From IMG/VR virus record IMGVR_UViG_3300005738_000030, positions 1-22,829 of that record: a stretch of DNA of 22,829 bases. One strand, given 5' to 3'. Below the pieces are notes generated by a model, which saw nothing but the letters and a program-made list of their open reading frames with translations, had not been told where the DNA came from and searched no databases. A program made the position numbers and the translations under genes. Below are positions 9,156 to 22,829 of this stretch, piece after piece (position 1 is the first letter of the stretch; each line of letters starts with the position of its first letter). The stretch is from a virus.

Positions 9156-12100
9156 ATGGCACAAGCTAATAATAATTTTTTAAAGTCTAGAATGAATAAA
9201 GATCTAGACGCTAGAATATTACCGAAAGGTGAATATAGAAACGCTGTAAATATTCAAGTCAGTAGATCAGAAGGAGAAAGTGTTGGTGCTTTAGAAAACA
9301 TATTAGGAAACGAGTTGTTAACTACTCTTCAACCCAATTCCAAAGCTATTGGTTATTTTGCAAACGAGGAATCTTCTATTGTTTATATTTTTGTAACTAA
9401 TTATTTAGATGAAAACCCAGATCAACCAACATACGATCCTACTAAAACACACGGTATATATTCTTATAACACTTTAACTAATCAAAGTACTTTATTAGTT
9501 TCAGGGGCTTTTTTAAATTTTTCACAGTCAAACCCTATATACGGTGTTAATTGCCTTGAAGAATTACTATTTTGGACAGATAATAGAAATCAACCTAGAA
9601 AAATAAATGTAAAAACTGCTTCTGAAGTTCCTGGTTATTACACTAAAGAAGAGCAAATATCTGTAGCTAAAAACTTCCCATACAAATCAATAGAGCTTTG
9701 GCAAGAAAGTCAATTAGGAACTTCTATTACAGAGAAAGAGTATGAAACTACAATGTACGATGTTTCTTCTAAGTTTTATCCAGATGGCGGAGAAGCATTA
9801 ACTAATGGAGCTGTAACTGCTTCTGTTAACATAATTATAGATAATATAGTTGGTTCTATACCTGTAGGATCTGTTGTTACGGGACCTAATGTAGCTGCTG
9901 GAACTACTGTTGTTTCTTTTACATTATCAACTAACACTTTAGTTGTTAATCAAGCCCAAACTCTAATAAACAATAGTGAGTTAGTTTTCAACGCAAACCC
10001 TTATTATGAATCTACTTTCAATGGAGATCCTAGCTACTTAGAAGATAGGTTTATTAGGTTTAGCTATAGATTTAGATATGATGATGGAGAATATTCAGTG
10101 TTTGCTCCATTCACTCAAATAGCTTTTATACCTAAGCAAGATGGTTATTTTATGCAAAAAACACCGGCTTCAACAGGTGTATTAGAGGAAGATGAGGAAG
10201 CTGCTTACAGAACAACAATAGTTGAATTTGTTGAAAACAAAGTAGATAAAATACTTCTTAGAATACCTTTGGAATCTAAAAATACTTTGTTTCAGGAAGA
10301 TTTAAAAGTTACTGAAGTAGACATACTATATAAGGAATCAGATCAAACAGCTGTTAAAGTTGTAGATACTATACCAATAAGTGCTATATATAATCAATCA
10401 GCAACATGCAGTGTTGTAGGAAATCCAATAGCTACTACCGATATAGTAGTTGACAATATAGTTGGTGGAATACAAGAAGGTAGTATAGTTTCTGGTGAAG
10501 ACATAGTTGATGGCACTAAGGTGGTTAGTTTCGATCAAGACACTTCTACTATAACAATGAGCGTAGCTCAAACACTAACAGACTCGACCGCTTTAACCAT
10601 AGGAGAACCAGATTTTTATATTTACAATTATCAATCAAAAAAACCCTTTAAAACTTTACCAGAAAACGAGCTAATAAGAGTGTACGATAAAATACCTGTT
10701 AAAGCTTTTGGTCAAGAAATAATAAGTAATAGAGTTGTTTACTCCAATTTTCAAGATAAACATACTCCACCTTCTACTTTAGATTACAATGTAAACGCTT
10801 CTGAAAAAGCAAATTTTAGTTTAAAAAACGGAACTCTAGATGTTAATGGAACTTTTGTAAATACAGACACTATAAATTACACTAATGTAACTGGTAGTAT
10901 TTTTACAGGATCTTTTGTTACTTCAGACGCCGTTGGCGCTGTAATACCAGCTGGAACAATAGTAGTTAGTTTTGACTCTGGTACTTTGTCTATGACATTT
11001 TCTAATAACGTTACTTTAGCTAGTGGAGATTTACTTCTTTTTACACCTAATTCTGATGTAGAGTATAATACTAGTACAATAGAATATCCAAATCACTCGT
11101 TAAAAGAAAATAGAAATTATCAAGTTGGAGTTGTTTTATCTGATAAGTTTGGTAGACAATCTTCTGTTATACTTTCAAGCAGTTTAGCTAGTGCGATAGT
11201 TGATGGGCAAGAATATATAGGCTCTACAATATACTCTCCATATAGGACAGCTGGAGTAAATCCAGCCGAATGGCGTGGTGATTCTTTAAAAGTTTTATTT
11301 AATAGTCCAATACATCCTATAGCACCAAATTATGCTACTGGTTGGCCAGGAGTGTATAATGGTGACTCTACTAGTTCAGATTATAATCCTCTTGGTTGGT
11401 ATTCCTATAAAATAGTTGTAAAACAAACAGAGCAGGAATATTATAATGTGTATTTACCAGGCGTAATGGCTGCTTATCCAGAACAAAACACTTTAGAGAT
11501 AGGTAAAACATCTCACACTGTTTTATTTAATGATAACATAAATAAAGTACCTAGAGACTTAAACGAAGTTGGTCCACTGCAGAGGCTTTTTAGAAGTTCT
11601 GAAGAGCTTTTTGGTAGAGTAGAAAACTTAGATTCTAGCATTGGAACTGGAGACATTAATACCCAATATTACCCGGGAAGAGTTTCAGATATAGTTAGTT
11701 CTATAGCTAATATGAATGATTTATTTGGATTAGATCCTTTATCTGTTGGTTATCCAGTTGCAGGTTATAAAGAATTTTATCTCTACGAGTCAAACCCTTT
11801 AATAGGTAGAATATCAACGGCTACAAAATTTGGAGTTGCATCAACCGTTACTAGAGCGACTGTAGATGGTGTTGTTACGGCTAATGTAGATATAATAATA
11901 GATAATTTATCTGGACCAGTTCCTCAACCAGGCGATATAGTAACTGGTTCAGGTATCTTAGCAGAAACCTCTGTGGTTAGTTATAATGCTGGTCTTTCTA
12001 CAGTTACAGTAAATCAAGCTCAAACATTAGCTGACGATACTTTACTTTTATTTTCTCCACAAGTTGCACCAATTACAATACAAAATTTAGCAGTTTTTGA

Positions 12101-13685
12101 AACAGCGCCGGTAGAATCTTTGTTAGATATATTTTGGGAAACATCTACAAGTGGTTTAGTTAGTGATTTAAACACAGCTATACTAGATCAATCACTTGGA
12201 GGTTCTAGCTTAGAAGGCTGGACAACGCCTAATTTTACTGAAGAAGCTATTATAGGAACTATTATAAATGGCGCCCCTTTTTACTTATCTAATAATTTTG
12301 GATCTCAAGTAGCTCAAGCTGATATAGTAGATTTTTCTTTGCTAAACGTATTAGACAATAACAACGTAGATAGGTCTAGCGATTTTGAAGTTGACTACTC
12401 TCTTAATAATGGAACTTACCAAATAAAAACAAAAAGTTTATTTTGGTTTGGAGTTGATACAGCTCCTAGAAATTTCACTTTTACATTTTCAGCACAAACA
12501 ACAGATGGTACTATTAGTCAGTTTATTGAAACAGCTAGTTTAATAAATATAACACCAGCTATTACGACGTGTCCTGATGGGCAAACATTGGTAGTAGATA
12601 TAGAAGATACTTTTATTACACAAATACAAGGTGAAAATGGTTCCGCTTATTTTGAAGCTTCAGGTCAAAACCCAGCTGTTAAAAATTTAGCTGGTCAAGA
12701 TTTAGTTTGGGAAATGATACAGTACAATGTTACTGACCCAACTACTCCGTTAGAATTTGGACCTTTTACAGCAACACCTGTAACACCTGCGGAAGGTACA
12801 GATGATATAGCTTCTTTAAATATAACAAAAGACACAACTTCATCTGGAGAATATATCATAGAAGTAACATTAAAAGATGCGCAAGGTGAGCCTGGAGCTG
12901 GTTCTTTATCTACAATAGCTTCTTCTTGTACTTTTAACGTAGAAATAGAAACCCCATGTGAAGATGGTAGGCAATGGCGGTATAAAACTGGATCAAAACC
13001 TGGTAATTTAATTGATGCAACTGCTAATTTTACAAGTTTAGTAAGTGGAAGTTACTCCGATGCAGACCAGGTGTTTTTAATTGATACACTAGATTTTTAT
13101 AATGCTACAGCTAATATATGGAGTTATTGCAGTCAAGAAGCAGACGGAAATATACAAGCAGGAAATCTAAGTGAAGCTGGAGTTTATAAAGGTTCTAGAG
13201 TTCAGGTTTACCAGAATGGAGCTTGGTCTGAATACGCTCAAGTACAATATTATAAACCAGGAGGTGGAAGTACTGCTGAAATAAAAATTAGACCAAGTTC
13301 TTATGTTGGCGGAAACCCTCAGACAGGTATAGATTGGTCTACTGTTGCAGCTGGAACTCCAATTAGGTTTTATACTGGAAAAGACCTTCTTAGATGGACT
13401 AACCAGTTTGGAACGCAATGTGGTGGGATTTATAATTTCAATACGCTTGTTTTTATGGTTGGAGATCCTGTAAGCCCACCGAATGATTCTAGTTTAAATA
13501 TATCATCAAACTTCGCAGACGGAGGTATTTGTTGGGCTCAGTCGTTTACACAGTGTCTAACACCTCAATGTCCAGTTCAAATAGGAGACGGAACATATCC
13601 TTATACACCAACAAGCTTTCAACCTTACCCTGGCGGCGGTGGAAACTCGTGTGGTTCTACAATTGGCAATATAACATGTACATAG
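9156..13685 (+). CDS. Tail hub / DNA-stabilisation protein, N-terminal part, with inserted beta modules
   Basis: This 1509-residue protein begins with a motif typical of P22 gp10/T7 gp12-like hub or 'muzzle' proteins: MNKDLDARILPKGEYRNAVN, IQVSRSEGESVGALENILGN (about 13-52), then propeller-like strands. Four copies of a small beta module (about 59-63 residues) are inserted at 218-279, 425-483, 568-630 and 905-967. Residues about 1035-1260 look cadherin/Ig-like (for example SSDFEVDYSLNNGTYQIKTK). The last 371 residues are Cys-rich: 10 of the protein's 12 Cys are there, ending NITCT. No signal peptide is visible. It should cap the short tail and hold DNA in the head, and may present host-contact domains. 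The next gene looks like the other half of the same structure. The hub call is good; the adhesion role is inference. Confidence 0.75.
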   Translation: MAQANNNFLKSRMNKDLDARILPKGEYRNAVNIQVSRSEGESVGALENILGNELLTTLQPNSKAIGYFANEESSIVYIFVTNYLDENPDQPTYDPTKTHGIYSYNTLTNQSTLLVSGAFLNFSQSNPIYGVNCLEELLFWTDNRNQPRKINVKTASEVPGYYTKEEQISVAKNFPYKSIELWQESQLGTSITEKEYETTMYDVSSKFYPDGGEALTNGAVTASVNIIIDNIVGSIPVGSVVTGPNVAAGTTVVSFTLSTNTLVVNQAQTLINNSELVFNANPYYESTFNGDPSYLEDRFIRFSYRFRYDDGEYSVFAPFTQIAFIPKQDGYFMQKTPASTGVLEEDEEAAYRTTIVEFVENKVDKILLRIPLESKNTLFQEDLKVTEVDILYKESDQTAVKVVDTIPISAIYNQSATCSVVGNPIATTDIVVDNIVGGIQEGSIVSGEDIVDGTKVVSFDQDTSTITMSVAQTLTDSTALTIGEPDFYIYNYQSKKPFKTLPENELIRVYDKIPVKAFGQEIISNRVVYSNFQDKHTPPSTLDYNVNASEKANFSLKNGTLDVNGTFVNTDTINYTNVTGSIFTGSFVTSDAVGAVIPAGTIVVSFDSGTLSMTFSNNVTLASGDLLLFTPNSDVEYNTSTIEYPNHSLKENRNYQVGVVLSDKFGRQSSVILSSSLASAIVDGQEYIGSTIYSPYRTAGVNPAEWRGDSLKVLFNSPIHPIAPNYATGWPGVYNGDSTSSDYNPLGWYSYKIVVKQTEQEYYNVYLPGVMAAYPEQNTLEIGKTSHTVLFNDNINKVPRDLNEVGPLQRLFRSSEELFGRVENLDSSIGTGDINTQYYPGRVSDIVSSIANMNDLFGLDPLSVGYPVAGYKEFYLYESNPLIGRISTATKFGVASTVTRATVDGVVTANVDIIIDNLSGPVPQPGDIVTGSGILAETSVVSYNAGLSTVTVNQAQTLADDTLLLFSPQVAPITIQNLAVFETAPVESLLDIFWETSTSGLVSDLNTAILDQSLGGSSLEGWTTPNFTEEAIIGTIINGAPFYLSNNFGSQVAQADIVDFSLLNVLDNNNVDRSSDFEVDYSLNNGTYQIKTKSLFWFGVDTAPRNFTFTFSAQTTDGTISQFIETASLINITPAITTCPDGQTLVVDIEDTFITQIQGENGSAYFEASGQNPAVKNLAGQDLVWEMIQYNVTDPTTPLEFGPFTATPVTPAEGTDDIASLNITKDTTSSGEYIIEVTLKDAQGEPGAGSLSTIASSCTFNVEIETPCEDGRQWRYKTGSKPGNLIDATANFTSLVSGSYSDADQVFLIDTLDFYNATANIWSYCSQEADGNIQAGNLSEAGVYKGSRVQVYQNGAWSEYAQVQYYKPGGGSTAEIKIRPSSYVGGNPQTGIDWSTVAAGTPIRFYTGKDLLRWTNQFGTQCGGIYNFNTLVFMVGDPVSPPNDSSLNISSNFADGGICWAQSFTQCLTPQCPVQIGDGTYPYTPTSFQPYPGGGGNSCGSTIGNITCT
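9807..9992 (+). repeat. Beta-module repeat, copy 1 (residues 218-279 of hub protein)
   Basis: The protein-level pattern is NIIIDNIVGSIPVGSVVTGP, then GTTVVSF, then TLVVNQAQTL and a final LVF. It is clearly homologous to copies 2-4. The DNA is diverged, so the duplication is old or maintained by selection on protein. Confidence 0.85.
10428..10604 (+). repeat. Beta-module repeat, copy 2 (residues 425-483)
   Basis: The pattern is DIVVDNIVGGIQEGSIVSGE, then GTKVVSF, then TITMSVAQTL. It is closest to copy 1 in the DNIVG and VVSF blocks. Confidence 0.85.
10857..11045 (+). repeat. Beta-module repeat, copy 3 (residues 568-630)
   Basis: The most diverged copy: INYTNVTGSIFTGSFVTS, then AGTIVVSF, then LSMTFSNNVTL and LLLF. 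It keeps the GT-VVSF core and the closing hydrophobic strand but has lost the QAQTL signature. Confidence 0.75.
11868..12056 (+). repeat. Beta-module repeat, copy 4 (residues 905-967)
   Basis: The pattern is DIIIDNLSGPVPQPGDIVTG, then SVVSY, then TVTVNQAQTLADDTLLLF. It shares VNQAQTL with copy 1, suggesting that 1 and 4 are the closest pair. Confidence 0.85.
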
Positions 13686-13725: not shown

Positions 13726-15168
13726 ATGGGAGCAGTAGTAGAAGTAAAATATTTTAACACTTTTGTATTAAAAAAGACTATAAGTAATCCACCTGAAAAA
13801 CCAGTTTGGAATGGCTCTTTTGGTATACCTCAAAGTATTGGTGGTTATACCAGATCAGGATCTAACTTAACAGGTACAGGAAACTGGGCTATAGAAGAAT
13901 CTAGAATTAGAGGTGGCTACAATAATACGACAGTTGATTTTGGAGTAAAAGCTTATTTAGTAGAAGAAGAACCAAATGCATCTAACAGAATAAACTCTTT
14001 GATATACTCTGGCATATTTAACTCGAGAACGGGTATAAATAGAACAAATGTTTTTTCTGTAGGTGAAGATATAATAAAGTCAGTTGATCCAGCTAATGGA
14101 TCAATACAAAAACTTTATGCTGAAGACAGTAGGTTAATAATATTTCAAGAAAGAAAAGTCAGTGGAGCATTAATAGATAAAGACGCTATATACTCAGCTG
14201 AAGGTGGAGGTGTAGTGACTTCTTCAAATTTAGTTATAGGCGCTATTCAACCTTATGCTGGCGATTATGGCATAAGTAAAAACCCAGAAAGTTTCGCTGT
14301 ATATGGTTATCAAAAGTATTTTTCAGATGCAAACAAAAATGTAATACTTAGACTTTCTAATAATGGAATAACAGAAATATCTGCAGCTGGAATGGTTGAT
14401 TATTTTAGAGACAAAATAAACTCGTTTTCAGTTCCTTCTTTTCCAGCTAGACTAATAGGAGGTTACGATATACATAACAAACAATATGTTATTTCTATTC
14501 AAAAAAACATACAGTTACAAGATAATAGCTATCAAACCTTATCTTTTGACGAAAGAGTAAAAGGTTGGGTTAGTTTCTTTAATTACCAGCCAGATCAAAT
14601 ATTTAGCTTAAGAAATAAAACATATACCATTAAAAACGCTGGTCTTTGGCAGCATTATGCTATTAGACCAACTACATTTTACGGTACGACTTACCAGTCG
14701 TCTATAACCTTTGTGTTAAACTCAGAGCCAGAACAAAGCAAGTCTTTTTATACTATTGGTTATGAAGGAACAAATGGTTGGCAAGTTAATAATATAGTAT
14801 CTGACCCAACTGGTTCAGGTCCAAATGTAGAAAATGACGGTACCGGGTGGATATCTACAGATGATAAATCTGCTTTAATACGAAGTTATACAGTTGGAGC
14901 ATACGACAATTATGGTAATGAATACCCAGCAACTTTATACCCACCATTGAACTATGCTGGTTTTAATAGAAAAGAAAATAAATATGTTGCTAATATAATA
15001 AACAACAGTACTCCAGCAGAAGCTGAAGTAGCTTTTGGAGACCAAATAAGCGGAATTAAAGGAAACTATATAACTGTAACAATGCAAACAGATGGGGTTA
15101 CAGATCCAGAAGGTGTTAAAGAATTGTTTTCTGTAAACTCTAAATACACAAGAAATAGCGGATATTAA
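13726..15168 (+). CDS. Tail hub / stabilisation protein, C-terminal part
   Basis: This 480-residue protein reads as the second half of the hub/muzzle structure begun by the gene before it. It has propeller-like blades: ESRIRGGYNNTTVDFGVKAY (about 62-81), NSLIYSGIFNSRTGINRTNV, GEDIIKSVDPANGSIQKLYA, DSRLIIFQERKVSGALIDKD, GGYDIHNKQYVISIQ, then DERVKGWVSFFNYQPDQIFS. The repeated pattern of strands ending in short Gly/Asn turns is typical. It lacks the N-terminal DARILPKGEYRNAVN motif, which lies in the upstream gene. It has its own ATG 40 bases after that gene's stop, in a different frame and behind an AAACAAGTAATA leader, so it is an independent cistron and not a simple frameshift. The two products probably assemble together; this is inference. 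Confidence 0.72.
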   Translation: MGAVVEVKYFNTFVLKKTISNPPEKPVWNGSFGIPQSIGGYTRSGSNLTGTGNWAIEESRIRGGYNNTTVDFGVKAYLVEEEPNASNRINSLIYSGIFNSRTGINRTNVFSVGEDIIKSVDPANGSIQKLYAEDSRLIIFQERKVSGALIDKDAIYSAEGGGVVTSSNLVIGAIQPYAGDYGISKNPESFAVYGYQKYFSDANKNVILRLSNNGITEISAAGMVDYFRDKINSFSVPSFPARLIGGYDIHNKQYVISIQKNIQLQDNSYQTLSFDERVKGWVSFFNYQPDQIFSLRNKTYTIKNAGLWQHYAIRPTTFYGTTYQSSITFVLNSEPEQSKSFYTIGYEGTNGWQVNNIVSDPTGSGPNVENDGTGWISTDDKSALIRSYTVGAYDNYGNEYPATLYPPLNYAGFNRKENKYVANIINNSTPAEAEVAFGDQISGIKGNYITVTMQTDGVTDPEGVKELFSVNSKYTRNSGY

Positions 15169-17238: not shown

Positions 17239-20200
17239 ATGAACGAATTAGAAACTTACGTAGTTTCACTACAAGATCAAGGTTTGTCTGTAGATGAGAT
17301 TAAAGCTAAAGTAATAGAGTGGAAAAAGAACAACAAACAAGAAGTTGTTGAAACCTCTGTCGAGCCAGTAAAGACAGAAGACGGTGCAGTGGGTGCAAGT
17401 GCTCCGTCGGTAGGACCACAACCAGCACCAGAGCCTACGGAATTAACATTGGAAGATGGTTTTTCGGTATCACCAGAAGATAAAATAAAAGAATTAGATA
17501 GAGAGGCAGAGAATATTTTATGGGAAGGATATCAAAGAGCAGCTAAAGAGACTAAAGCTAAAGAAAAAGAAATAGCCATAATGTCTTTTGGTGAAAAACT
17601 TTTAGTTGATTTTAAAAAAGGAAGTACGACTTTAGGTGAAATGATAGCTTCTGTTCCAGAAACTATATACGACTTATTTGCTTTACCTCAAAACTTGTTA
17701 GCTAGCGCTACTGGCTTAGACATTGAAGCTAGTGCTGAAAAATTTAAAGAAAAAACTGGATTAGAAAACCCTGTGTTAGAGTTTTATGAAGCAGAAAGTG
17801 CTAAACTTCAAGAATCACAAGACATATACAATAAAGCCAACTATGATCACCAAGGTATCTACAAAAACTTCGAAGAAGGTAATTATGTAGATGGTTTTAA
17901 GCAATTAGCTAGCGGTTTAGCTGAAAGTGCACCAGTAAGTATGTCTATGATGATTGGGGGTGCTGCTGTTAGCACAGGTAAACTAGCTGCTGGTAGTACA
18001 ATAGCTTTTGCTGGTCCAGAAATAAAAGAACAAAGAGAAAAAAATGTAGGACAATCTGAAGCAGAAAATATTATAAAAGGCTTAGGTTTAGCAGGGGCTG
18101 AAAGTGTATTTAGCTCTATAGGAACTGGTACTATAGGTAAAGTCTATAAAGATATATTAATAAAAGAAGGTAAAGAAGAAGGCGTAAAGATATTTAGACA
18201 AGGACTTGTAGATATGTATAGATCTGCTTTAACTAAGTTTGGAGCACCAGCTTCTATGGTTGGTGAGGGCGTTGAGGAGGTTGCTACTACTATTACTCAA
18301 AATATGATAAATGGAGTCGATCCATTTGAAAACGTAGCTGATTCTTTTATACAAGGAGTTGGTGGTGGTTTAACTTACGGAGCTCCAATTAACTCTGCTC
18401 AAGCAGTTAAAGCTGTTAAGTCTGGTATTACAAACTTAAATATAAACAAGGAGTTAAAAACATCTGATTCCAATAATGTTATAGAAGCTTTTAACTCAGA
18501 GACACCAACATCTGAAGCTGAAATTAAAATATCACAAATCCCTGGATCATTAAGTGCTATAGACGCTAAAGCAGATAAGCAAGTTGAGGTTGGTGATATA
18601 ACTATAGATCAAGCTAACGATGTTAAGTTGAGAGCTAGAGAAGTTCAAGGATCTGTTAATAGATTAAAGCCTTTAGGTATAAGCGTAGAAAATCAACCAG
18701 CAATAGTTGATTTAATGATAGAACAAAAAAAGTTAAAAAATACTATAAAGCAGGTAGACAACTCTAGTCTAACAAAAGCAGAGTCAGAAAGACTTAGTGA
18801 GATAGACAAAGAGTTAAATGATATAATTGTAGCTGATAAAACTGCTAAAGTAGAAAAGGGAGCAAAGGTCATAGCAGAGCAAGTTGGAACTGGCTTTGAA
18901 ACTTTTGAAAACGAAGCTGATATGGCTTCTGCTATAGAAACTTTAAAAGAGCAAGGCGGAAAAGTAGATGTTAAAAATTCTCAAGACTATGGCAGCTTTG
19001 TTGTTATGCCTGATGGTAAAAAAATAGTAATACTAAACAAAGAGTCAGCTGCTGAAGATAACGTCATGGACAGTGGCGGTCACGAAATTGGCCATGTTCT
19101 AGTGTATGAAACCGTAAAAAATAATCCAGAAGCCGCGATAGCTTTAGGTACATCTCTTTTAGAAGAATTAAAAAACAGTAAAGACATAACATTTACAAAC
19201 TCTAGGTTTTTAGATAGATTTAATCAGTACGTTGAAGATGCTGATATATCTAAAGCAGATACTATGGAAGAGGTATTAACTCTATCTAGTGAAGGTTTAG
19301 CTAATGGTGATATAGTTTTTAATGAAAAAGCCTCTACTAAAATAGGTGATTTTATACGTAGAGCTTTAAGCGCTATGGGTTTAAACGTTAAGTTTAAAAC
19401 TGGAAAAGATGTATTAAATTTTGTTAGAGATTATAATAGAAGTATACAAAAAGGTAAAGGTCTTTCTAAAGGTCTTGAAAAAGCAGCTACAAAAGGAGCT
19501 GAAGTAGGTATAAAAGCACCAACAGAAGTTGATATGGGCCTTGAAACAGAGGTTGACTTAGGTGATGTTAAACCTAGTAAAAAAGATACAGGCGTTATAG
19601 CATCTACTAAGGTTCAAGAAATATACGACACGCAAGGTGAAGCTGGTGCTTTTGATATTATAGATCAATTTAAGCCTATAGTAAATAGAATAGTAGAAAA
19701 AAGAAGAGATGCGCCTAATTTTGATCGTCAGTTATTAACTGATGAAATTGAAACAGGTAAGCGTGGTATATTCGATTTAATTAGAGAGTATAAACCTGAA
19801 TCAGGTGTGCCATTAGCCGCTTATATAAATAAGTTTTTACCAGCTAGAGCTATTGAAGCTTCTCAAAGAGTTTTAGGTGAAACATTTACTGAAGACGTAA
19901 CTGAAGCTAGAGGTATAGCAGCAGAAGAGGTAACAACTGAAGTTGCTGAAAAACCTATTACTAGAAAAATAAAGCCAAGTTCGTTAATTTCTAACGATGC
20001 GGTGACTAAAATTAAAGAGCAAGTACAAGAGAAGATTAAAGGCATCGATCCTAAAAATCTAACATTTAAAAAACTTGGTGACTTAGCTCCTGAAATTATT
20101 GCAGCTGAATTGGGTATACCAGTTAAAAAGCTTACAGTAGCTACAGCTAACCTATCGAAAGGTGATGCTACAGCTATTCAGCAATTTGTCAATAAGAACG

Positions 20201-22829
20201 CAGATAAATTATTAAAGATATTACCAGAAGGTGCGGTTATAGAAGCTGCAACAGAGAAGCTCTTAGGCACATCTACTGGCGTGCCAAAAGGATTACTTAA
20301 TGCTTTTTATACTAAACAAGATAGATTAGGCAAAGGAGCTGGACTTGCTCCATTTAAATTAAACAAAGGGATTAGTAAAGCTGATTTCTTAAAAACGTTT
20401 GGTATTGTTGAAGGTAAAAAAGCTGAAGGGTTTGATGCTAGATCACCACAAGCTCAAGCTTTAAAAGGTATTGCTAGTTTATATGGTAAATTAGTAACTA
20501 ATGAAATTGTAAGATCTGATACAGGTTTAAGCCTAGAAGCTAAGCAAGATGTAGCAGCCGGTAAGTCTAAAGCTATGGCTAGTAAAAGAATAACTACAGA
20601 GGCTGAAATTTCACCTAAACTAAAAAAGTTATTTGAGGAAGTTACTCAAGCTAAAGATATAAATTCTGCCGCAAAAATCATTGGCATAGAAGGTAAAATA
20701 ACTGTTAGTGATTCAAATAGAGCGGAAAAACAAGCTCAAATGCTCGAATACATAAAAGCAGCTAAAATACCTAGTTCTGTTTTTATAGCTGCAAAGTTTG
20801 GTAATTTTGCTAGGAGAAAAGTAGATGGAAAATATATAGATTTACCTGCTAGAGGGGGTTTGTATTATGGAGGTAAAGATCCTAATTATCAAAATGCTTT
20901 AGCTTTAGCGAAAGAAAATGATTCTAAATATCCTGATTTAAAAGCTCCTAAGAGAGTTAATGTTAAAAATGCTTTTACTAAAGAAGGTCAAGAACAGTCA
21001 GCTGTTAATATGGAATTTTTAGAAAGCTTCACTAATATATTAAGTGATGCTGTAAACAATAATGGGATGCCAATTGAATTAGCGGCTTTGTTTATTACGT
21101 CTAGTTATCAAGCTTCAAGTGGAGCTATAAAGATAGCTGCTGGTTTTAAATATGAGTCTTCAAAATTTGAGTACGCTGGAAAAGACGCTAGTAAAGCTAG
21201 TGATAATACAGGTGAAAAGTTTAGAGAAGAACACACTATACCAGCTTCAGTTATAGGTGCTAATTTAATATTAGCAATAAAAAACAATGCTGTTAAGCCT
21301 ACGATGGATGCTGTTAGAGAGAACTTTTATCAAATAAAGTTATCTAAAAAAGATGATACAAAACTTGATAAAGCCAATTTAAGCTCTACGCTTGTAGAAG
21401 GACAAACAATATTTGACAACCCTATAACAAGACTTGCAGCTGCTGGAATTGATTTAAACGTAATAACAAAACCTAACACAGGTAAAACTATAGCTCAAGA
21501 AAGTGGGTTTGGTATCGATTCAAAAGTATACAATAAATATAATGCTAACGAAAAACTACAAGCTTCTAGTATTCAAAATGAGGCTATATTAGAAGGTTTA
21601 AAAAACCCAGACTTAGATGTTGCGAGTCAAATAAAAGCATCTCTACCTTTGGTACCAGGAAAGTCAATAGCTTCAAAACGTGATAGCGATTTAATTCCTG
21701 ATGCTATAAAGTACGACAGACCTATAACTGTACAAACAGCTATAAACGCTTTAGAAAAAACTGATAAAGCTTTAGAATTAGCTAGAAAACTAGATCAACC
21801 TGTTAAAAAAATTAGAGTATTTGATTTTGACGATACATTAGCTAGAACTAAAAGCAATGTACTATATACAACGCCTAATGTTGAAGGAGGTTTTAGTGAA
21901 GGTTCTACTAAATTAAAGGCTATATTTATGGTTGGTGGTCCTGGCGCTGGAAAAACAAACGTAGGTAAAGGACTACAACTTGGTAGAAGAGGTTACAAAG
22001 TAGTTAATCAAGATATAGCTCTTGAAGCTATGAAAGCAGAGTCTGGACTACCTGCTAAGGAGTCGGATTACACAGCAGAGCAAAGATCAACAAGATCTAA
22101 GTTAGGTGCAGCAGCTAGAAAAGCAGCTGTAGCTAAGTTTGACAAGTACGCTGCTAATGGAGACGGTATGGTTATTGATGGCACTGGTGCTTCATATAAC
22201 GCTACTACAAAAAAAATAAAAGCATTACAAGAAAAAGGCTATGAAGTACATATGGTTGTAGCTAATACACCATTAGAAACAGCCTTAGAAAGAAACAGGG
22301 CTAGAACTGAAAGATCTTTACCAGACTTCGTAGTACAAAAAACATACGATCAAGTTCAAGAAAGTTTAGCTAAATATAAAAAGGATTTTGGAGGTCGGTT
22401 ATATGAAATAAATACTGAAGCTATACAATACGGAAAACCTTTACCTGGTGATTTCTTAGAAGTAGTTTATGAGGGAATAAACGCTAACAAAGTAGGTAAG
22501 ATTGACGCTGCTACATTTGCTAAAGAAGCAAGTAACATGGAAGCTGAAGGAGCTCAGTGGGATTTCTCAGAGTTTAGTAAAGTAATGGAAGGAAGTAAAG
22601 GACCACTTTTAGATGTAGCTAAGATTATAGCAGACAAGCGTGGGACTAAAGATGTATTTGTTTTAACGGCAAGACCTGCAGATGCAGCTGGACCAATTAA
22701 AGAATTCTTAGCTAGCATGGGATTAGATATTCCACTTGCTAATATAACTGGTTTAGGTGATGGTACTCCACAGGCTAAAGCTGGGTGGATTATGGGTAAA
22801 GCAGCTGAAGGTTATAACGACTTTTATTT
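17239..22829 (+). CDS. Giant polyvalent (probably injected) protein; 3' end outside window
   Basis: The frame is open from ATG 17239, five bases after the previous stop, to the window end: 1863 full codons. Order: a helical start and Pro-rich linker (about 45-75); a phage-type Ala/Gly-rich region with a hydrophobic stretch (about 228-260, SAPVSMSMMIGGAAVSTGKL); a zincin-like region with HEIGH at 615-619; a sigma-70 region-2-like segment (about 795-880); a helical region (about 1020-1120); an EHTIP domain (His 1332); and a HAD phosphatase (DFDDT, 1529-1533) interrupted by a P-loop kinase (GGPGAGKT, 1566-1573), resuming with VLTARP (Thr 1810). Such chains of unrelated enzymes are characteristic of 'polyvalent' phage proteins thought to be packaged and injected. 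Packaging here is inferred from neighbours. The last HAD motif should lie just past the window edge, where YNDFY has begun. Individual activities are predicted, not shown. Confidence 0.88.
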   Translation, partial: MNELETYVVSLQDQGLSVDEIKAKVIEWKKNNKQEVVETSVEPVKTEDGAVGASAPSVGPQPAPEPTELTLEDGFSVSPEDKIKELDREAENILWEGYQRAAKETKAKEKEIAIMSFGEKLLVDFKKGSTTLGEMIASVPETIYDLFALPQNLLASATGLDIEASAEKFKEKTGLENPVLEFYEAESAKLQESQDIYNKANYDHQGIYKNFEEGNYVDGFKQLASGLAESAPVSMSMMIGGAAVSTGKLAAGSTIAFAGPEIKEQREKNVGQSEAENIIKGLGLAGAESVFSSIGTGTIGKVYKDILIKEGKEEGVKIFRQGLVDMYRSALTKFGAPASMVGEGVEEVATTITQNMINGVDPFENVADSFIQGVGGGLTYGAPINSAQAVKAVKSGITNLNINKELKTSDSNNVIEAFNSETPTSEAEIKISQIPGSLSAIDAKADKQVEVGDITIDQANDVKLRAREVQGSVNRLKPLGISVENQPAIVDLMIEQKKLKNTIKQVDNSSLTKAESERLSEIDKELNDIIVADKTAKVEKGAKVIAEQVGTGFETFENEADMASAIETLKEQGGKVDVKNSQDYGSFVVMPDGKKIVILNKESAAEDNVMDSGGHEIGHVLVYETVKNNPEAAIALGTSLLEELKNSKDITFTNSRFLDRFNQYVEDADISKADTMEEVLTLSSEGLANGDIVFNEKASTKIGDFIRRALSAMGLNVKFKTGKDVLNFVRDYNRSIQKGKGLSKGLEKAATKGAEVGIKAPTEVDMGLETEVDLGDVKPSKKDTGVIASTKVQEIYDTQGEAGAFDIIDQFKPIVNRIVEKRRDAPNFDRQLLTDEIETGKRGIFDLIREYKPESGVPLAAYINKFLPARAIEASQRVLGETFTEDVTEARGIAAEEVTTEVAEKPITRKIKPSSLISNDAVTKIKEQVQEKIKGIDPKNLTFKKLGDLAPEIIAAELGIPVKKLTVATANLSKGDATAIQQFVNKNADKLLKILPEGAVIEAATEKLLGTSTGVPKGLLNAFYTKQDRLGKGAGLAPFKLNKGISKADFLKTFGIVEGKKAEGFDARSPQAQALKGIASLYGKLVTNEIVRSDTGLSLEAKQDVAAGKSKAMASKRITTEAEISPKLKKLFEEVTQAKDINSAAKIIGIEGKITVSDSNRAEKQAQMLEYIKAAKIPSSVFIAAKFGNFARRKVDGKYIDLPARGGLYYGGKDPNYQNALALAKENDSKYPDLKAPKRVNVKNAFTKEGQEQSAVNMEFLESFTNILSDAVNNNGMPIELAALFITSSYQASSGAIKIAAGFKYESSKFEYAGKDASKASDNTGEKFREEHTIPASVIGANLILAIKNNAVKPTMDAVRENFYQIKLSKKDDTKLDKANLSSTLVEGQTIFDNPITRLAAAGIDLNVITKPNTGKTIAQESGFGIDSKVYNKYNANEKLQASSIQNEAILEGLKNPDLDVASQIKASLPLVPGKSIASKRDSDLIPDAIKYDRPITVQTAINALEKTDKALELARKLDQPVKKIRVFDFDDTLARTKSNVLYTTPNVEGGFSEGSTKLKAIFMVGGPGAGKTNVGKGLQLGRRGYKVVNQDIALEAMKAESGLPAKESDYTAEQRSTRSKLGAAARKAAVAKFDKYAANGDGMVIDGTGASYNATTKKIKALQEKGYEVHMVVANTPLETALERNRARTERSLPDFVVQKTYDQVQESLAKYKKDFGGRLYEINTEAIQYGKPLPGDFLEVVYEGINANKVGKIDAATFAKEASNMEAEGAQWDFSEFSKVMEGSKGPLLDVAKIIADKRGTKDVFVLTARPADAAGPIKEFLASMGLDIPLANITGLGDGTPQAKAGWIMGKAAEGYNDFY
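18916..19338 (+). other. Zincin-like metallopeptidase domain within the giant protein
   Basis: HEIGH (bases 19081-19095) follows a strand pattern (GSFVVMPDGKKIVILNKESA) and lies in a helix-like GGHEIGHVLVYETV. A candidate third ligand is Glu 677 or 678 in TMEEVLTLSSEG, about 60 residues on. This is the usual order for HEXXH zincins: strand, HEXXH helix, downstream acidic ligand. Boundaries are approximate. The substrate is unknown; self-cleavage of the polyvalent chain is one option. Confidence 0.65.
19621..19878 (+). other. Sigma-70 region-2-like segment within the giant protein
   Basis: Residues about 795-880. After a helix FDIIDQFKPIVNRIVEKRR, the core GKRGIFDLIREYKPESGVPL then AAYINKFLPARAIEAS closely follows the sigma-70 region 2 pattern G-x-x-G-L-x-x-A-hydrophobic-x-x-F-D-P-x-x-G-x-x-F-x-x-Y-A-x-x-x-I-R-x-x-I. 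No region 4 helix-turn-helix is evident nearby. Confidence 0.5.
21808..22829 (+). other. HAD phosphatase with nested P-loop kinase (partial)
   Basis: HAD motif I DFDDT is at residues 1529-1533. A P-loop kinase occupies about 1558-1730: Walker A GGPGAGKT 1566-1573, Asp 1592 in VVNQDIALEAMK, VIDGTG at 1645-1650, and a lid-like ALERNRARTERSLPD. The HAD chain resumes at KIDAATF (about 1754), with motif II VLTARP (Thr 1810) and probable motif III Lys 1847. Motif IV should follow YNDFY at the cut end. The kinase resembles polynucleotide-kinase/zeta-toxin families. Confidence 0.8.

Follow-up and report, generated by a model that had tools for sequence, protein, structure and literature searches.

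Crassvirus-type phages are abundant and the way in which their tail tip recognises the host is poorly known. The locus analysed here raises the question of what four dispersed copies of one short repeat are doing within a single long tail protein of a phage of this kind. The window, that is, the whole stretch of DNA examined, is a virus record of 22,829 bases in which terminase, portal, capsid and tail genes are arranged in series, and its nearest named phages are relatives of Callevirus, Elemovirus and Baltivirus together with MW202828. An earlier note on this DNA had proposed that a small exchangeable domain was inserted repeatedly into surface loops of the propeller of a tail hub protein, perhaps for carbohydrate or host binding. 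The reading favoured by our analyses, to which taken as a whole we assign a probability of roughly 0.6, is that the repeats are exchangeable cassettes on the exposed distal part of a tail muzzle, most likely touching the host envelope. The two reading frames concerned and the four repeats are the following:

9156 to 13685, plus strand: muzzle ORF1, 1509 amino acids, N-terminal portion of a tail muzzle of the crassvirus type, with four inserted modules
9774 to 9995, plus strand: module S1, residues 207-280, six predicted strands, pLDDT mostly 82-89, i-E 9.9e-22 (earlier limits 9807-9992)
10401 to 10601, plus strand: module S2, residues 416-482, six predicted strands, i-E 1e-18 (earlier limits 10428-10604)
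10830 to 11045, plus strand: module S3, residues 559-630, six predicted strands, i-E 9.5e-21 (earlier limits 10857-11045)
11850 to 12056, plus strand: module S4, residues 899-967, six predicted strands, i-E 4.5e-20 (earlier limits 11868-12056)
13726 to 15168, plus strand: muzzle ORF2, 480 amino acids, the C-terminal muzzle piece, without modules in the window

That these are four real copies of one module, as had been suspected, is borne out both by shuffled scores and by profiles taken from other genomes. Identity between any two copies ranges from 25/65 to 32/67. Local alignment scores, at 73-152, exceed those of shuffled sequences (500 shuffles per pair) by 6.8 to 18.5 standard deviations, the real score being reached by no shuffle of its pair. 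Profiles built, with the window clade excluded, from the modules of other genomes at S2, S3, S4 or S6 (the last being a site in ORF2, described below) each recovered all four window copies at values below 1e-5, and the corresponding S1 profile matched none of the four. Against reversed ORFs the site profiles gave 0/3172 matches and against the outgroup muzzles none, and a search of the other window proteins for the module yielded no copy (next best i-E 1.7). The iterated HMM search identified 290 domains in 119 ORFs, and the modules outside ORF1 were all in ORF2 (38 ORFs), save for positions 10870-13380 of locus L073, the remainder of one broken ORF1; ORF2 hence accounts for 38 of the 39 ORFs other than ORF1. 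The sequence blocks by which the repeats had been recognised hold approximately, with literal DIIIDN present in copy 4 alone, GTxVVSF present in copies 1, 2 and 3 but replaced by ETSVVSY in copy 4, and QAQTL confined to copies 1 and 4. The predicted domains also begin about 6-11 residues before the limits previously given (residues 218-279, 425-483, 568-630 and 905-967).

Each copy is predicted to be an autonomous six-stranded beta-barrel of about 70 residues and not a propeller blade. The model of ORF1 gives all four copies the same six strands with pLDDT mostly 82-89, much of the scaffold around them being uncertain, and S2 folded alone with 105 relatives gave a pLDDT of 88.4 and the identical six strands. 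The nearest solved folds were the JBD30 baseplate hub at 476-561 (Z 9.1), the Mystique tail tube at 101-181 (Z 8.5) and the Chi tail tip at 230-313 (Z 8.3), which cover 72-74 of the 76 module residues, followed at Z 6 to 7 by domain II-like barrels of translation factors, T5 Dit pb9 and lambda J; because Z values of 7-8 are usual for models without clear relatives, these matches to phage barrels are only suggestive. Barrels were the best among the fold matches listed and no Ig-like family appeared there, although a family may have been missed. The likeness to other phage structural proteins, which had also been suggested earlier, agrees with the viral predicted structures of the BFVD that share this fold (best E 2.8e-4; 8 matches at E <=0.001), among them structural proteins of cyanophage and uncultured phages. 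At the sequence level, no Pfam family reached cut-off level against the 105 modules (best E 0.0039, none matching more than 2/105), the PDB search with the module profile gave lambda J as a weak best match (E 0.15), and tblastn against the named phages yielded no match at all for S4 and three for S1 at E 8-10, none of them significant.

The description of the carrier as a tail hub did not survive, since the match to PF25731 and the fold match to phicrAss001 identify it as a crassvirus-type muzzle piece. Residues 7-174 of ORF1 match the Pfam profile PF25731 (crAss_MUZ) with 42.3 bits against a cut-off of 27, and ORF1 also matches phrog_14478. ORF2 matches PF25731 with 38.8 bits (profile positions 1050-1223) and PF25729 with 38.1 bits, the cut-offs being again 27. 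Because ORF1 matches the start of PF25731 and ORF2 its C-terminal end, the muzzle is present as two pieces. AlphaFold2 on residues 1-1150 with 56 sequences yielded a model that is poor overall (mean pLDDT 65, pTM 0.41), and its top match among solved structures was the phicrAss001 muzzle 7qol_P (Z 11.0, 208 aligned residues, rmsd 5.7), in which residues 52-531 of an only moderately confident model align onto 61-316 of the chain; 7qok_A was matched with Z 10.8, and the fold shared with phicrAss001 gp44 is that of its propeller/IG1 region. The PDB search with the ORF1 profile gave no match at E 0.01. On these profile and model matches the protein is a piece of a two-ORF crassvirus-type muzzle and no generic hub. 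Within its distal part, where the crass fold was looked for, residues 760-896 have pLDDT <50 and are covered by none of the fold matches listed, and after the last module follows another domain:

12195 to 12554, plus strand: cadherin-like beta-sandwich, residues 1014-1133, VIA-align Z 10.7 to CDHR3 domain 1

By VIA-align this domain also resembles many protocadherins, and from there a poorly conserved tail runs to residue 1509.

The two-piece state is not peculiar to the window. Relatives were sampled as the best 80 of 392 confirmed ones, giving 79 loci, so that all counts refer to the nearest relatives, and ORF1 and ORF2 are separate in 67/67 clade loci that extend beyond ORF1, the other 13/80 ending at a contig edge. 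In 6/6 outgroups, including phicrAss001, the muzzle is a single ORF and ORF2 aligns within it, although the one-polypeptide state is a difference only and not a defining feature of the Pfam muzzle family. With the muzzle split into two ORFs across this marine clade, two chains must therefore build one propeller-type protein.

Comparison with the outgroups shows the modules at S1 to S3 to be insertions. Five outgroup muzzles have 24-26 residues in the S1 interval where the window has 126, and 47-48 residues in the S2 interval where the window has 116. The S3 interval is empty in phi38:1 (45 residues vs 126 in the window), the other four holding a different long sequence, and at S4 all five outgroups aligned there have other, unaligned sequence, so that no empty state was seen. 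In phicrAss001 gp44 the intervals measure 17 vs 111 (S1), 60 vs 128 (S2) and 65 vs 125 (S3) residues in the window, with borders that are approximate because 73/373 aligned residues are identical to the window. The module is thus missing at S1 and S2 in 6/6 outgroup muzzles and at S3 in phi38:1 and phicrAss001. By a mapping based on about 20% identity and the fold match, S1 and S2 fall in or beside the IG1 domain of phicrAss001 (163-292) and S3 at the start of IG2, as these domains are delimited by Bayfield et al. Because the intervals map to IG1 and IG2, the modules would lie, as inserts, in the Ig-like and distal regions of the muzzle and outside the blades: of the original proposal, the insertion of small domains into loops of a tail-tip protein stands, and their placing in loops of the propeller does not.

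Within the clade, site occupancy changes. The sample contains 71 distinct ORF1 proteins among 80, the window record counted. The S1 module is present in 71/71 of them and the S2 module in 67/71, its interval having only 21-22 residues vs 86-104 in L011, L050, L069 and L074; close relatives lacking a copy at the same loop, whose existence had been put forward as a check, are therefore found (4/71). Two further sites lie in ORF2 and are empty in the window:

14638 to 14664, plus strand: empty site S5, ORF2 residues about 305-313, module present in, for example, L006, L028 and L042
14896 to 14925, plus strand: empty site S6, ORF2 residues about 391-400, module present in, for example, L021, L027, L028 and L042

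Among the rows with usable ORF2, S5 is occupied in 15/47 and S6 in 24/47, in different combinations (S5 only in L006, S6 only in L021 and L027, both in L042 and L028). A scaffold tree built from 70 rows after exclusion of the module columns requires at least 3 changes for S2, 1 for S3 doubling, 2 for S4 doubling, 5 for S5 and 1 for S6, counts that do not separate gain from loss and that use site states taken from segment lengths. L070 was accordingly scored S5-filled by length, although its ORF2 gave no module match with the profile; the S4 states exclude L060 and five rows cut at S4 (L065, L072, L073, L077 and L078), and L005, a near copy of the window, was excluded from the tree and several counts. 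Of the long S3 and S4 segments, 21/23 contain nested modules (L045, L054, L057, L071 and L079 among the carriers): the N-part of an outer module is followed by a whole second module and then by the C-part of the outer one, which scores near full length after removal of the inner one. The nesting site is the loop between strands 4 and 5. L021 and L048 are uninformative on this point because the script chose the first module as the inner one.

Despite this turnover, the modules are mostly site-faithful and inherited in place. The best match beyond near relatives was at the same site for 62/70 S1, 63/66 S2, 63/68 S3 and 38/43 S4 modules; same-site matches dominate at S6 too, and S5 is mixed (5/16). 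On the module tree, 8 label changes suffice to account for the sites, vs a mean of 55.7 after shuffling. These two results rule out free hopping as a rule, and the idea of an exchangeable domain is to be kept for replacement at a site and given up for free movement between sites. General gene conversion within a genome was likewise rejected, as modules at different sites are no more alike when they share a genome (mean identity 0.257, 364 pairs) than when they come from different ones (0.246 to 0.270), with same-site identity higher than between-site identity in every band. As a separate observation, S1 of the window clade (9774-9995) is nearer to the S2 and S6 modules of other genomes than to their S1: the S2 and S6 profiles match the window S1 (9e-16 and 6e-15) and the S1 profile of other genomes misses it, and the S1 of L001 scores highest against its own S4. 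A cross-site replacement of S1 in this clade is unsupported by the tree, in which an all-S1 clade is not rejected (p-AU 0.927).

Whole modules are replaced between otherwise similar muzzles. In the pair L019/L031 the DNA identity is 94-98% in the muzzle scaffold, 94% in S2 and 96% in S3, and falls to 50% in S1 and 61% in S4, the deepest drops over the first 15.6 kb of the loci; at S4 the identity breaks off abruptly, with borders defined to a few tens of bases. Identity dips less deeply at 2101-2400 (0.80-0.81) and in part of 12001-12900 (0.83-0.90). Past 15.7 kb the genes differ widely. The first of these dips is a second variable spot, close to the C-terminus of the portal or to the beginning of the next gene. 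In a second case the S4 of L023 is identical at 77/81 positions to the S4 of L016 (scaffold 0.87) and at 28/62 to that of L032, whose scaffold is the closest to that of L023 (0.93). Among 16 pairs using each genome once, drops of more than 15 points below scaffold identity were found in 13/61 module blocks vs 1/144 control blocks of similar size from ORF1 (Fisher p 5.7e-7), these pairs being partly dependent (a single near-identical cluster supplies both L044/L052 and L041/L046, and close kinship links L016, L017, L023, L030, L032 and L037). All 39 pairs gave 33/151 module blocks vs 4/351 control blocks, and many pairs (for example L002/L003, L040/L043 and L063/L067) had no such drop.

The modules are under purifying selection, with ω never above 1: in the 16 pairs ω ranged between 0.12 and 0.62 in the modules and between 0.04 and 0.17 in the scaffold, and the dN of the modules was 1.5-12.7 times that of the scaffold, the modules being faster in all 16. 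The dS values of modules vs scaffold were 0.50 vs 0.17 in L019/L031 and 0.48 vs 0.18 in L071/L079. A DGR origin, for which the criterion was adenine-only substitutions within a repeat of fixed length, was rejected: the replaced modules contain all six mismatch types and 15-69 gap columns, and 59-70% of the mismatches involve A.

Phage tail tips with small inserted domains are already known, and so is domain mosaicism. One of the closest systems is phicrAss001 gp44, which according to Bayfield et al. 2023 (PMC10172136) has a similar ring-joining and propeller region with Ig-like inserts, and which differs from the window in being a single polypeptide of 1371 amino acids with no module at S1, S2 or S3. 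The same paper places the crass domain at the tail tip, where it is thought to contact the cell surface, and states that muzzle length varies by crass and IG2 insertions that can affect surface properties, insertions that it reports in general terms and not as one repeated domain. Domain VI of the JBD30 hub (Z 9.1, 74 aligned residues, rmsd 2.6, 10% identity) has the same barrel topology class and likewise extends from a beta-domain of a tail-tip protein, but it is a single copy in another tail type, and its role is given as stabilising the baseplate. The barrels of the Mystique tail tube, Chi tail tip, T5 Dit pb9 and lambda J (Z 8.5, 8.3, about 6.9 and 6.4, values close to the background of the tool) have no significant sequence kinship with the module and are single copies as far as seen. 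According to PMC10688798, inserts in the Dit of lactococcal skunaviruses raised adsorption to EPS-bearing hosts; these evolved Dits resemble the present case in having small distal-tail inserts, present or absent among relatives, that affect adsorption, and differ in being siphophage ring proteins with recognised carbohydrate-binding modules, the window protein being a muzzle. The present case also resembles the sharing and shuffling of fragments that Smug et al. 2023 (PMC10684548) outline for receptor-binding and other tail proteins; unlike the mosaicism described there, the window muzzle has one domain in several loops of one protein, with nested copies. In the open-licence literature, represented mostly by titles and abstract openings, we found no repeated barrels or module exchange in a muzzle, nor any two-ORF muzzle in which a single family has repeatedly entered several fixed loops, nests within itself and is exchanged there.

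Taken together, these results give the following picture. One autonomous barrel of about 70 residues sits, by the mapping given above, in loops belonging to the Ig-like and crass-domain region of the muzzle, and the clade keeps about six docking loops, four in ORF1 and two in ORF2. The modules are mostly inherited in place, evolve faster than the scaffold and are occasionally lost, gained or nested. Whole alleles are exchanged among phages that are related, a process that probably runs through homologous recombination where the flanks are conserved. Most likely the modules serve as exposed decorations at the tail end in contact with the host envelope (capsule, LPS or surface proteins), and a module swap would retune adsorption with the gate and ring-joining parts undisturbed. 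The common fold, the insert status of S1 to S3, the presence or absence of modules, their nesting and whole replacement and the purifying selection on them come out of the computations, whereas surface exposure, contact with the host and the route of recombination are inferences. The placing of the modules on the hexamer is only inferred because the ORF1 model is poor overall, and the role of the JBD30 match, the purifying selection, the lack of an S4 empty state in the outgroups and the partial dependence of the 16 pairs are points against this reading. It is conceivable, though we advance it tentatively, that the muzzle of this marine clade is a display platform with multiple slots, in which some six fixed loops carry one interchangeable barrel, which can also accept a copy of itself, and alleles are shuffled slot by slot through recombination. 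If true, this would mean combinatorial variation of a host-contact surface on a split gate protein, by a mechanism resembling antigenic variation but with no retroelement, inversion or recombinase.

The main competing explanation is that the modules are structural spacers or clamps that stabilise an enlarged split muzzle with no contact with the host, the barrels joining the ORF1 and ORF2 chains or neighbouring subunits. Conserved sites that are nearly always filled (S1 in 71/71, S2 in 67/71) are what it would predict, and a stabilising role has been described for JBD30 domain VI; replacement between near-identical muzzles, nesting and the vacancy of S5 and S6 in the window are, however, a poor fit to a tight interface, and we consider it rather unlikely. 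We hold it improbable that the modules serve to anchor further proteins of the phage, tail fibres for example, and co-vary with these partners. Fibres can be borne by accessory tail domains, and L019 and L031 differ also downstream of about 15.7 kb, but no partner was identified, the fibre hubs of phicrAss001 are on ring proteins R1 and R2 and not on the muzzle, and S1 and S4 of L019/L031 differ while the intervening genes are 94-100% identical.

Comparably low is the probability that the divergence reflects fast drift of exposed loops with no exchange of alleles. The faster evolution of the modules in 16/16 pairs and the predominance of same-site best matches are both expected from drift, yet some close pairs (L019/L031 and L071/L079) have elevated dS in their modules as well, one module at 50% DNA identity lies beside neighbours at 94-96%, and the S4 of L023 matches the module of a less related scaffold. 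That the segments are ordinary propeller blades, or folds common to all homologues, which had been named beforehand as the outcome that would speak against insertion, is extremely improbable: the near-constant presence of S1 and S2 within the clade (71/71 and 67/71) would suit it, but both are missing in the six outgroup muzzles, phicrAss001 among them, and a module modelled by itself closes into a barrel; relatives also differ at these loops by gain, loss or doubling, and individual modules are exchanged for others between near-identical genes.

Under the favoured reading, of exchangeable cassettes that touch the host envelope, the module family pinpoints the muzzle surfaces that seem to be under selection, and the transfer of loop cassettes from one related phage to another would be an added mechanism of tail diversification. 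The near-identical backgrounds with natural module replacements constitute a ready set for testing muzzle contacts.

Elsewhere in the window, a very long ORF (17239-22829) runs off the record and has an AAA or zeta-toxin-like kinase domain near residues 1560-1709. HEIGH and FDFDDT motifs are visible in it by eye, which we take to be like those of metallopeptidases and HAD phosphatases, respectively. The product may perhaps be an ejected cargo protein.
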